From Schleiferiaceae bacterium (GTDB lineage: Bacteria > Bacteroidota > Bacteroidia > Flavobacteriales > Schleiferiaceae): DNA of 42,103 nucleotides. Below, in pieces: positions 6-5,810 of this stretch. The position numbers were made by a program, and so were the translations under genes. The notes beneath the pieces are model-generated. The model saw only the letters and a list, made by a program, of their open reading frames with translations, made no database searches and was not told the origin of the DNA. The stretch lies in the NCBI GenBank assembly GCA_022426185.1, contig JAKMEB010000024.1:1-42103 (forward strand), read 5' to 3'. Within the stretch, counting starts at the first letter, position 1, and every line of letters starts with the position of its first letter.

Positions 6-722
6 TTATTTAACTGATTGACTTTGAAAATATTCATCAATGCGCTGTAGGGCATATAGTTCGTAATTCGAGGGTGCAAATATGTAGCTTTTTAGATGGT
101 TTGACAAGGCCTTTGCATCTCCACCGCAAATGAACACCCTATTTATGCCTGTTTCAACTTGAATAGCGCGAATCATTGCATCTATTTCAAGAGGTAATGC
201 AACATCAACTCCGGAACGCATACTTTCCTCCGTAGAGGCTCCTACCACGGGGGTTACGCTACTTTTCGAAAGATCCGGTAAGGCTGCTGTAAACGCGTGC
301 ATTGCCTTATAACGCATGGCCCAACCTGGAGAAATTGCACCACCAATGAAGGCTTCATTTTTAACAATATTATAAGTAATACACGTCCCCGCTACGACCG
401 TTATGAAATCCTGACGGTGCTCCAACCATTGCGCTGCTGAGAATAGCAATCGGTCTAAACCTAATGTTTCAGGCGTGACGTACGAAATTTTGAATGGCCA
501 TGGCGAATCAATAGTGATCCATTGAATGGTTTCGGGCCAATCTGTTGCGACTGCCCCACTTGCAATACCTATTGAACGCACATTGGAATGATTCCATTGC
601 GCATATACCTTCAGCGCTTGATCTACCTCTTGACTGTCAATCACATTGTGCTCGATCAGGTTGGCCCCATCAAATAAACCCATTTTTATGCGGGTGTTGC
701 CTATGTCTATGGTAATTAACAT
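6..722 (-). CDS. coaX: Type III pantothenate kinase (CoaX)
   Basis: Catalyses the first step of coenzyme A synthesis, ATP-dependent phosphorylation of pantothenate, in the cytosol. The 238-residue protein has the ASKHA phosphate motif IDIGNTRIK (residues 5-13), TPETLGLDR (83-91) and AGTCITYN followed by GGAISPGW (111-134), all type III hallmarks. I chose the ATG at 722 because the family starts directly before the DIGNT motif; an in-frame ATG at 749 would add nine residues with no family counterpart. Odd: the motif usually written DxGTxxTxD reads VAGTCITYN, so the first Asp is Val110 and the last is Asn118. The family assignment is secure from the fold motifs; activity is less certain. Confidence 0.93.
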   Translation of the reverse strand: MLITIDIGNTRIKMGLFDGANLIEHNVIDSQEVDQALKVYAQWNHSNVRSIGIASGAVATDWPETIQWITIDSPWPFKISYVTPETLGLDRLLFSAAQWLEHRQDFITVVAGTCITYNIVKNEAFIGGAISPGWAMRYKAMHAFTAALPDLSKSSVTPVVGASTEESMRSGVDVALPLEIDAMIRAIQVETGINRVFICGGDAKALSNHLKSYIFAPSNYELYALQRIDEYFQSQSVK

Positions 723-2802: not shown

Positions 2803-3519
2803 ATGAAAACCGTTTTTCACTCACACCAATCCCGCGGCCATGCGAATCACGGCTGGCTGAACAGCTACCACAGCTTCAGCTTCGCCAACTATTTCAATGC
2901 GCAAAAAATGAACTTTGGCTTGCTTCGCGTGCTGAATGACGATACGGTGGCTCCAGGAATGGGTTTTGGGACCCACCCCCATGACAATATGGAGATCATC
3001 TCTATACCACTAAGTGGCGATTTAAAACACCGCGATTCCATGGGTAATGAGACAACAATCAAAGAAGGTGAGTTGCAGGTTATGAGTGCGGGGTCTGGAG
3101 TAACGCATAGCGAGTTCAACCCTAACCAAAGCAGCGAAGCGAAGTTTCTACAGATCTGGATCGTACCAAATAAACGAGATGTTTTGCCACGCTACGATCA
3201 GCAGCTACTTCCAGATCTCAGCAATAAGAACTATTTACATCAAGTACTGAGCCCTAATGCGGATGATGCCGGCGTATGGATTCACCAAAACGCTTGGTTC
3301 CACATCGGTCTTTTTGATGAGCAGGAGGTGGTCCAGTATCCATGGAAATCTCCAACAAATGGCCTTTATGCTTTTGTTTTAGAAGGTGAATTTGATTTAG
3401 GAGACCACACATTAGGTCATCGCGATGCACTTGGAATTTGGGATACAAACGAAATCACGATTAAAGCTACGGCCAAAGATTCAAGAATTTTATTGATTGA
3501 AGTGCCGCTGACCAACTAA
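2803..3519 (+). CDS. Pirin family protein (YhaK/YhhW-like bicupin)
   Basis: The 238-residue protein is a full-length pirin, a cytosolic two-cupin protein. The N-terminal cupin carries the metal-binding set seen in YhhW-type quercetinases: His58 and His60 in FGTHPHDNMEII, and His102 and Glu104 in GVTHSEFN. The opening motif GHANHGWLNSYHSFSFANYF is typical. Family members bind Fe or another metal and some have quercetin 2,3-dioxygenase activity; others act in redox sensing, so the true substrate is unknown. The start follows AAAGGAAACT, one of few Shine-Dalgarno-like stretches here. Two dyads upstream (2739-2768 and 2772-2791) suggest regulation. Confidence 0.9.
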   Translation: MKTVFHSHQSRGHANHGWLNSYHSFSFANYFNAQKMNFGLLRVLNDDTVAPGMGFGTHPHDNMEIISIPLSGDLKHRDSMGNETTIKEGELQVMSAGSGVTHSEFNPNQSSEAKFLQIWIVPNKRDVLPRYDQQLLPDLSNKNYLHQVLSPNADDAGVWIHQNAWFHIGLFDEQEVVQYPWKSPTNGLYAFVLEGEFDLGDHTLGHRDALGIWDTNEITIKATAKDSRILLIEVPLTN

Positions 3520-3562: not shown

Positions 3563-3581
3563 TCGTCATAATTACACCACC

Positions 3582-4913
3582 ATGAAACAGCCCATAAAAG
3601 GATTTTCAAAACTGAGCAAAGCCGCCAAACTTGAATGGCTCGTCAATAATAATTTCAAAGATGCTAATGATGCACGGTCCATATTCACCGCATATTGGCA
3701 CGAGGATAAAGCACTTCAAAAGCGTCACGATGAGTTCATTGAAAACACGATGAGCAATTATTACATGCCCTATGGTGTAGCACCCAATTTCCAAATCAAC
3801 GGCAAACTGTACACGATCCCTATGGCTATCGAAGAAAGTTCAGTGGTTGCTGCAGCTGCGAAGAGCGCAGCTTTTTGGATGGCTCGTGGCGGTTTCAAAA
3901 CGAGCGTGCTGGGTACACAGAAAATAGGCCACGTACATTTTATGTATTCGAGTGACGCAAGTGCTTTGAAGGAAGATTTCAGTTCCTTAGAGCAGCAATT
4001 ACGTGATGCAACAGCAGAACTTACTGCAAATATGGAGGCCCGAGGCGGCGGCATAACATCCATCCGACTTGTGGATGCGACCGACCGACTTGATGATTAT
4101 TATCAGCTTGAAGTTATTTTTGAGACTTGCGATTCCATGGGAGCCAATTTCATCAACTCTAACTTAGAGGAGATGGCAAAATCGTTGGAAAAATTCGCTC
4201 AAAACCACGAACGCCTAGATGCAAATGCGCTCGAGGTCGTAATGCGCATACTTAGTAATTACACGCCGAACTGTATTGTTCGAGCAAGCGTGAGCTGTCC
4301 TGTAGAAGAATTGGCTAGTGAAGGTGTTAGTGCAGAAGAATTTGCCCGTAAGTTCAAGCAAGCAATAGCTATTGCAAATGCGGAGCCCTACAGGGCAACA
4401 ACACATAACAAAGGCATCATGAACGGTATTGATGCTGTAATTATTGCCACCGGGAATGACTTCCGTGCCGTCGAAGCCGCTTGTCATACCCACGCGGCCC
4501 GCTCCGGCAGATACAAGAGCCTTACTGGCTGTGATGTGGAAGATGGTGTTTTCACCTTTTGGATTGAAATACCCTTATCGTTAGGCGTTGTCGGAGGGTT
4601 AACGAAGTTGCATCCGCTCGTGGTAAAAAGCCTTGAAATGTTAGGCAACCCAAATGCTGAAGAATTGATGGGGATTGTTGCGGTAAGCGGTCTTGCGCAG
4701 AATTTTGCTGCGTTACGAGCTTTAGTGACTACTGGTATTCAGAAAGGTCATATGAAAATGCACTTAATGAACATCTTAACGCAACTCGAAGCTACACCGG
4801 AAGAGAAAATTCATGTCGCAAACTATTTCAAAGACAAAGTCCCTCATCATAGAGAAGTAGTCAACTATTTTTGTGAATTACGCGGTATTCCCGTACCCAA
4901 AGTTGGTCGTTAA
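3582..4913 (+). CDS. Hydroxymethylglutaryl-CoA reductase, class II type
   Basis: The 443-residue protein interconverts HMG-CoA and mevalonate. Class II signatures are present: EESSVVAAAAKSA (84-96, catalytic Glu), NKGIMNGID (276-284, catalytic Lys277), ATGNDFRAVEA (289-299, catalytic Asp293) and KGHMKMH (388-394, catalytic His390). There is no membrane segment, so it is cytosolic. Although the class is often named degradative, in Flavobacteriia it is the biosynthetic enzyme of the mevalonate route to isoprenoids (established for the group). The start at 3582 follows the -7 box at 3555-3562; an upstream GTG start would overlap that box. A GHMP kinase follows after 3 nt. Confidence 0.93.
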   Translation: MKQPIKGFSKLSKAAKLEWLVNNNFKDANDARSIFTAYWHEDKALQKRHDEFIENTMSNYYMPYGVAPNFQINGKLYTIPMAIEESSVVAAAAKSAAFWMARGGFKTSVLGTQKIGHVHFMYSSDASALKEDFSSLEQQLRDATAELTANMEARGGGITSIRLVDATDRLDDYYQLEVIFETCDSMGANFINSNLEEMAKSLEKFAQNHERLDANALEVVMRILSNYTPNCIVRASVSCPVEELASEGVSAEEFARKFKQAIAIANAEPYRATTHNKGIMNGIDAVIIATGNDFRAVEAACHTHAARSGRYKSLTGCDVEDGVFTFWIEIPLSLGVVGGLTKLHPLVVKSLEMLGNPNAEELMGIVAVSGLAQNFAALRALVTTGIQKGHMKMHLMNILTQLEATPEEKIHVANYFKDKVPHHREVVNYFCELRGIPVPKVGR

Positions 4914-4916
4914 AAA

Positions 4917-5810
4917 GTGAAGGAATTCTATGCCCACGGGAAACTATTGCTCACTGGAGAATATGCCATTACCCAAGGTGCGGTAGGTTTAGCTGTACCA
5001 ACAGTGCTGGGTCAAAAGTTAACGGTACGATCTATTGACGCTCCTACCATTCATTGGCAAGCTTTTACCGTTGATGGAGACTGTTGGTTAGACGTTTTAC
5101 TGAACAGTGAACTTGATATTCTTAAAGCGAATCGTCAGCTCGAAGCAAAACATCTTGTAAAGCAGCTACAGATTTTAACTCATCACAGCGATCGGTTAAC
5201 GGGTGGACTACATTTTGAAACTCATTTAGAATTTGATCGCAGCTGGGGTTTGGGTTCCTCAAGCACATTTACGAGTCTTCTTGCACAATTTGCAGGGCTA
5301 GATCCATTAAAGACCCTTCATAAAGCACATGGCGGGAGCGGATATGATTTGGCCTGCGCAACTGCAGAAGGACCTATTGAATATCAAATCAAGGACGGTA
5401 CAGCGCTCGTCAGAGCTGCTGAATGGAATCCCGATTTTGCGGATGATCTTGCTTTTGTCTTCAGTGGTAAAAAACAACTGACTTCTGAAAGCTTAGCTCT
5501 GGTCCAGAAACGGCCGTTCAGTGCACAACAAATTCAGGAACTCAACCACCTGACCGCTGCTTTTAAAAACGCATCAACGATCGAAAAATTCGAATCAATC
5601 ATCCGAAAACACGAACAGCTCATTGGGGCACATTTAGGGCTTGAACCCGTTTGCAACAACCTCTTTGAAGGGTATGAAGGTGCAGTGAAAAGGCTGGGCG
5701 GCTGGGGCGGTGATTATGTGCTCGTTACGCGTTACTCTGAAAACAAAAAATGGCTCATGGATCGAGGCTTCGAGCAGGTTTTCCCGTTGAGAACTTTAGC
5801 ATTGCTCTAA
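4917..5810 (+). CDS. GHMP kinase of the GYDIA family
   Basis: A 297-residue small-molecule kinase starting with GTG 3 nt after the HMG-CoA reductase stop. It begins FYAHGKLLLTGEYAI, the usual N-terminus of mevalonate-pathway GHMP kinases. The ATP loop is SWGLGSSSTF (109-118) and the family motif reads GSGYDLA (140-146), where the named family has GYDIA. A Gly-rich C-terminal motif GGWGGDYVLV is present. Close coupling with HMG-CoA reductase points to mevalonate or phosphomevalonate phosphorylation, but which substrate it uses cannot be told from the sequence. Confidence 0.87.
   Translation: MKEFYAHGKLLLTGEYAITQGAVGLAVPTVLGQKLTVRSIDAPTIHWQAFTVDGDCWLDVLLNSELDILKANRQLEAKHLVKQLQILTHHSDRLTGGLHFETHLEFDRSWGLGSSSTFTSLLAQFAGLDPLKTLHKAHGGSGYDLACATAEGPIEYQIKDGTALVRAAEWNPDFADDLAFVFSGKKQLTSESLALVQKRPFSAQQIQELNHLTAAFKNASTIEKFESIIRKHEQLIGAHLGLEPVCNNLFEGYEGAVKRLGGWGGDYVLVTRYSENKKWLMDRGFEQVFPLRTLALL

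Follow-up and report, generated by a model that had tools for sequence, protein, structure and literature searches.

Loss of the aspartate heading the PHOSPHATE2 motif in the type III pantothenate kinase of a Schleiferiaceae lineage

In type III pantothenate kinases (PanK-III), encoded by coaX, the proton is accepted by the conserved Asp of hGhDR, the PAN motif, and ATP is bound by a Thr of the PHOSPHATE2 motif, according to passages of PMC8721197; the INTERFACE motif GGxIxPG is defined in the same source. Excerpts from PMC10116679 and PMC4103530 state that these kinases require K+ or NH4+ and that their activity is insensitive to CoA. In Bacteroidetes, CoaX is typically the single pantothenate kinase according to a passage of PMC11487621. 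PHOSPHATE2 is usually written DxGTxxTxD, and among openly licensed papers we found none on a PanK-III without the Asp that heads it (referred to as Asp-less below); the passages seen of a Burkholderia structome paper mention pantothenate once, for panC. Here, we analysed an Asp-less CoaX from a Schleiferiaceae bacterium. The window, that is, the whole stretch of DNA analysed (42,103 nucleotides), is an entire contig of a 1.86-Mb draft genome that is 88.8% complete.

The coaX gene is the first of the contig, in an open frame on the minus strand. Residues were counted from the Met at 720-722, which bore out the earlier note's numbering of Val110 and Asn118. An in-frame ATG further upstream, at 747-749, gives an alternative product of 247 aa, and a near relative (L006) has the start context in common with this upstream ATG. 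CoaX sequences were compared in an alignment of 144 rows (160 minus 16 duplicates). The features of the gene are as follows.

6-722, minus strand: coaX, type III pantothenate kinase, a complete open reading frame of 238 aa
693-707, minus strand: PHOSPHATE1 motif (DxGNT), D6-I-G-N-T10, intact; Asp6 is found in 123 of 144 aligned rows
450-461, minus strand: PAN motif, G88-L-D90-R91 (LGLDR; hGhDR), intact; Asp90 is the expected proton acceptor from passages of PMC8721197
369-395, minus strand: PHOSPHATE2 motif VAGTCITYN, Val110 to Asn118, in place of DxGTxxTxD (from the reverse complement and its translation)
393-395, minus strand: codon GTA of Val110, where most of the protein family has Asp (from sequence and alignment)
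369-371, minus strand: codon AAT of Asn118, Asn in 23 of 23 genus sequences
324-344, minus strand: INTERFACE motif, G127-G-A-I-S-P-G133; G127 is found in 143 of 144 aligned rows, with a gap in the remaining one

The protein matched PF03309 (113.5 bits, E 1.5e-32, curated cut-off 24.7) and scored above the cut-off of TIGR00671 (93.6 versus 58.2). The best E value among the NCBIfam PanK-III models was 1.7e-51, with the finer equivalog models below their own cut-offs. As the earlier note had stated, the rest of the protein was intact and in frame, with DIGNT, LGLDR and GGAISPG all present; DIGNT fits PHOSPHATE1 and GGAISPG fits INTERFACE. Within PHOSPHATE2 itself, the GTxxT part (the Gly-Thr pair and the ATP-binding Thr) was kept as GTCIT. 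The neighbourhood was partly conserved in near relatives: in L006, the secreted-protein gene of the window is again found upstream of coaX, as is a gene resembling the window open reading frame at 2803-3519. Just upstream of coaX, the plus strand carries a tRNA gene (835-907). Elsewhere in the window, at 3576-5810 on the plus strand, a degradative-type HMG-CoA reductase gene (TIGR00532, above cut-off) stands immediately before a gene for a GHMP kinase of the GYDIA family (NF040656, above cut-off), possibly a mevalonate-pathway pair.

Read on the minus strand, 369-395 is GTA GCG GGG ACG TGT ATT ACT TAT AAT, or VAGTCITYN, and these codons confirmed the earlier report that both acids of the motif are gone. 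The PHOSPHATE2 Asp was missing from the window sequence and from those of 22 genus relatives; of these 23, 16 have Thr and 7 have Val, and all have Asn118. A profile search of 24 same-genus genomes gave no CoaX match in two of them, G020 (77% complete) and G023 (72% complete). Close relatives with Asp at this place, which had been proposed as a sign of a sequence error, were sought, and none of the genus relatives has it. An error of sequencing or assembly has nothing in its favour except the rarity of Val, and we rejected it as having practically no probability, because the other 22 genomes of the genus in which coaX was detected are also Asp-less, with varied synonymous codons (for Val, GTA 5, GTT 1 and GTG 1; for Thr, ACT 8, ACC 6, ACG 1 and ACA 1; at Asn118, AAT 22 and AAC 1). 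The substitution is therefore real and lineage-wide, in an otherwise ordinary PanK-III.

The heading Asp, Val110 in the window, was absent from 57 of the 144 aligned CoaX sequences; it is common rather than defining for a type III pantothenate kinase, because Burkholderia PanK-III proteins listed in the PDB are without it. The second Asp, at the place of Asn118, had been presented as a feature of the whole family. This did not hold: only 64 of the 87 sequences having the first Asp also have the second, 8 have Cys (including those of B. subtilis and Legionella adelaidensis), and the second Asp was rejected as family-defining. Among the Asp-less rows outside the genus, L059 and L069 keep Asp at 118 and L062 has Glu; thus, the first acid can be lost without the second.

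Across the family Schleiferiaceae, 54 of 81 sequences were Asp-less (81 of 82 matches, a fragment in G394 being left out), in 7 of 19 genera and with no mixed genus. The residue at 110 was Asp in 27 sequences, Ser in 25 (g2, g3, g6, g12 and g14 summed with 20 in g11), Thr in 18, Val in 7, Asn in 2 and Ala in 1. Flavobacteriales, Cryomorphaceae and Schleiferiaceae are the labels of named relatives having this motif, which is the basis for the family name used here. The 30 phylum and 23 order sequences, the best scoring among the matches listed, were all Asp bearing, a choice that leans to canonical sequences and gives no frequency. In a tree of 114 sequences (the 144 minus the 30 phylum rows, L077 to L106), the presence or loss of the Asp needed at least 4 changes, 2 of them forced by starred branches, and the residue itself needed 12; the tree was made by a quick method, leaves 36 of 111 inner branches open and joins L107 and L108 to L110 on long branches. 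With at least 4 changes needed and 2 forced, the PHOSPHATE2 Asp was probably lost more than once.

Two further observations were made on these sequences. The PHOSPHATE1 Asp (residue 6) is replaced by Glu in 12 Asp-less family sequences (L066, L140, L141, L144, L145, L147, L149, L152, L153, L156, L157 and L158) and in L114, and by Asn in eight Asp-bearing order sequences (L007 to L014); therefore, a second active-site acid varies too. One draft genome, G413, has two places matching PF03309 on separate contigs (C65 and C86), which points to a second copy or to a mixed bin.

We then considered which aspartate is the general base. The Asp of GADR is residue 108 of the Thermotoga PDB chain, and the Asp of GLDR is residue 124 of the Pseudomonas chain. 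We take these chains to carry tags of 3 and 23 residues, respectively, judging from the native lengths, and the native numbers of the general base to be Asp105 (Thermotoga) and Asp101 (Pseudomonas). When the tags are subtracted, the GxDR Asp therefore becomes Asp105 and Asp101, in agreement with those base numbers; the Asp of DMGT in Thermotoga would presumably be Asp125. Thus, in the characterised enzymes that the earlier note had named for alignment, the base numbers fall on the GxDR Asp and not on PHOSPHATE2. Every one of the 144 aligned sequences, 57 Asp-less and 87 Asp bearing, has Asp90 (LGLDR), and Arg91 was kept beside it in all 57 rows without the PHOSPHATE2 Asp. The idea that the first PHOSPHATE2 Asp, here Val110, is the general base was rejected on the PDB alignments and on passages of PMC8721197, in which the base is the PAN Asp, Asp90 in the window protein. 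Judged by alignment, the general base of the window CoaX is unaffected, and Val110 lies in the ATP-phosphate motif. The analysis corrects the assignment of the catalytic aspartate in CoaX motif annotation.

To what extent the protein works as a kinase was judged from selection and gene content. For the 21 pairs of the Val clade, dN/dS lay between 0.097 and 0.266, and coaX is under purifying selection. A type I kinase (TIGR00554) was matched in none of 25 genus genomes and, above cut-off, in none of the 61 genomes searched; sub-threshold matches occurred in 16 of the 61, none of them in this genus. The suggestion that another kinase makes CoA thus found no type I enzyme behind it in 25 of 25 genus genomes, and this candidate was rejected. 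The type II kinase (PF03630) gave no match in the 61 genomes, in a search that was also without match in all 14 control genomes, which makes this negative a weak one. In 16 genus genomes (the window's own and 15 of 24), coaE was found in all 16, coaBC in 15 (14 above cut-off) and panC in 15 (13 above cut-off), some of the coaBC, coaE and panC matches being fragments. Taken together, these CoA genes, the dN/dS values, the lack of a type I match and the passage of PMC11487621 on CoaX as the typical sole kinase of Bacteroidetes favour an active kinase over the other readings. We consider it likely that the window gene encodes an active PanK-III that makes the 4'-phosphopantothenate of this organism, with a cation site altered or lost. 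In such an enzyme, the hydroxyl of pantothenate would be activated by Asp90 of the PAN motif, and the ATP phosphates would be held by three residues of PHOSPHATE2, Gly112, Thr113 and Thr116. The PHOSPHATE2 Asp would have been lost before the genus arose, and the position would have varied by drift since then (Ser, Thr, Asn, Ala or Val).

Two other readings of the protein were weighed against an active kinase. Yang et al. in 2006 reportedly found by mutagenesis that the Thermotoga enzyme depends critically on three conserved aspartates of its active site, probably including the PHOSPHATE2 Asp125, and Pfam scores were lower for the Asp-less copies, which could reflect a relaxed or changed function. 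An inactive or decaying CoaX, with CoA made by another route, would fit the loss of an acid reported as critical. It would also have a parallel in the CoaX of M. tuberculosis, reported inactive in a passage of PMC7770189, so that a conserved CoaX can be without activity. However, the dN/dS values (0.10 to 0.27), the kept PAN, INTERFACE and PHOSPHATE1 motifs, the 25 of 25 genus genomes without a type I match and the presence of CoaX in 22 of 24 same-genus genomes make this highly improbable; purifying selection and retention across the genus likewise speak against the earlier proposal of an impaired enzyme. Repurposing of the Asp-less CoaX, perhaps towards a different substrate or a role in regulation, has a precedent in the other roles suggested for Mycoplasma CoaX with changed PAN motifs (passages of PMC8721197). 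Here, however, all 57 Asp-less rows keep Asp90 and Arg91, leaving the PAN motif unchanged, and the genus genomes yielded no pantothenate kinase other than CoaX, so we regard repurposing as very unlikely too.

For an active kinase, the question is then what became of the cation site. In UniProt/HAMAP annotation, the PHOSPHATE2 Asp is a ligand of the monovalent cation (K+ or NH4+) that activates the enzyme; if so, Asp-less enzymes have lost the site or rebuilt it. From the sequence comparisons, we infer both the activity of the protein and the altered or missing site. The lineage might use a different acid, as the earlier note had also considered, the lost Asp being replaced from elsewhere and the cation site being kept in shifted form. 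Glu221 and Asp173 were the candidates. Glu221 occurred in 21 of 23 genus rows (the other 2 are gaps), in 13 of 34 other Asp-less rows and in none of the 38 Asp-bearing rows of a first comparison (6 duplicates dropped), and position 173 was Asp in 16 and Asn in 6 of the 23 genus rows. However, Asp173 was found in 0 and Glu221 was missing from 21 of the 34 other Asp-less rows. The rows with Glu221 all fall in one large clade, so that common descent accounts for this residue equally well, and at residues 106 to 120 no acid was enriched in Asp-less rows. A shifted acid is unlikely. No residue gained by every Asp-less lineage was found in the 144-row alignment, Glu221 coming closest. A basic residue at 121 (Lys or Arg, in 21 of the 23 genus rows) and Arg227 (20 of 23) were rejected as common compensations, each being found in 0 of 34 other Asp-less rows.

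Abolition of the site would be the other outcome. We tentatively propose, while leaning against it, that Schleiferiaceae and, separately, beta- and gamma-proteobacteria evolved a PanK-III free of the need for a monovalent cation, with the K+/NH4+ site abolished, the position drifting (Ser, Thr, Asn, Ala, Met, Gly or Val) and the PAN base Asp fixed. If true, these lineages would offer natural pairs for studying the loss of a cation requirement.

Comparison with known CoaX proteins places the window enzyme in a wider series. Bacteroidota CoaX proteins with the canonical motif (L017, L024 and L035; DAGTCITYD) resemble it in length and in their PAN, INTERFACE and PHOSPHATE1 motifs, at about 25 to 40% identity, and differ in having Asp at 110 and usually at 118. 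Ten other named records included three that were Asp-less, from Comamonas odontotermitis (Met), Neisseria gonorrhoeae (Ser) and Acinetobacter baumannii (Gly). The remaining seven, from Sphingomonas, Legionella, B. subtilis, Fusobacterium, Parabacteroides (itself a member of Bacteroidota), Nonomuraea and Anaerotruncus, keep the Asp. The three Asp-less proteins are like the window CoaX in having lost the PHOSPHATE2 Asp and kept the PAN Asp, and unlike it in phylum and in residue; the N. gonorrhoeae copy sits in a 631-aa frame. In both N. gonorrhoeae (L108, NZ_CP119142.1, 2.17 Mb) and A. baumannii (L160, NZ_CP064203.1, 3.97 Mb), the Asp-less CoaX was the only PF03309 match of the record, TIGR00554 had no match and coaBC was present. 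Both records are labelled plasmids, yet they are chromosome sized and carry housekeeping CoA genes. These labels look wrong, and from their sizes we take both to be main chromosomes, though a plasmid record need not carry all genes of a strain.

By alignment, the same kind of Asp loss is present in these other bacteria and also in solved structures. The Burkholderia PanK-III proteins 5b8h and 4o5f/4o8k, like the window protein, have no PHOSPHATE2 Asp (ATFGTATTLEA, with Thr) and an intact GSDR; unlike it, both PDB sequences have Thr rather than Val and Glu at the second place, and they are distant in sequence. Since these solved structures already carry a non-Asp residue here, the finding in a single gene is modest; the wider comparison suggests that several lineages can do without a residue regarded as near-universal in this essential, drug-targeted enzyme family. 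The PDB chain 9b78_A, also a PanK-III, keeps the PHOSPHATE2 Asp, but its motif (DFGSSICVD) is without the GTxxT threonines, and its PHOSPHATE1 reads DVRNT. The PanK-III proteins of Thermotoga maritima (3bex, 3bf1, 3bf3 and 2gtd) and Pseudomonas aeruginosa (2f9t and 2f9w) belong to the fold family of the window protein by sequence profile and have GxDR in common with it; unlike the window protein, they keep the Asp, in IDMGTATTVD and IDLGTAVTSD, respectively.
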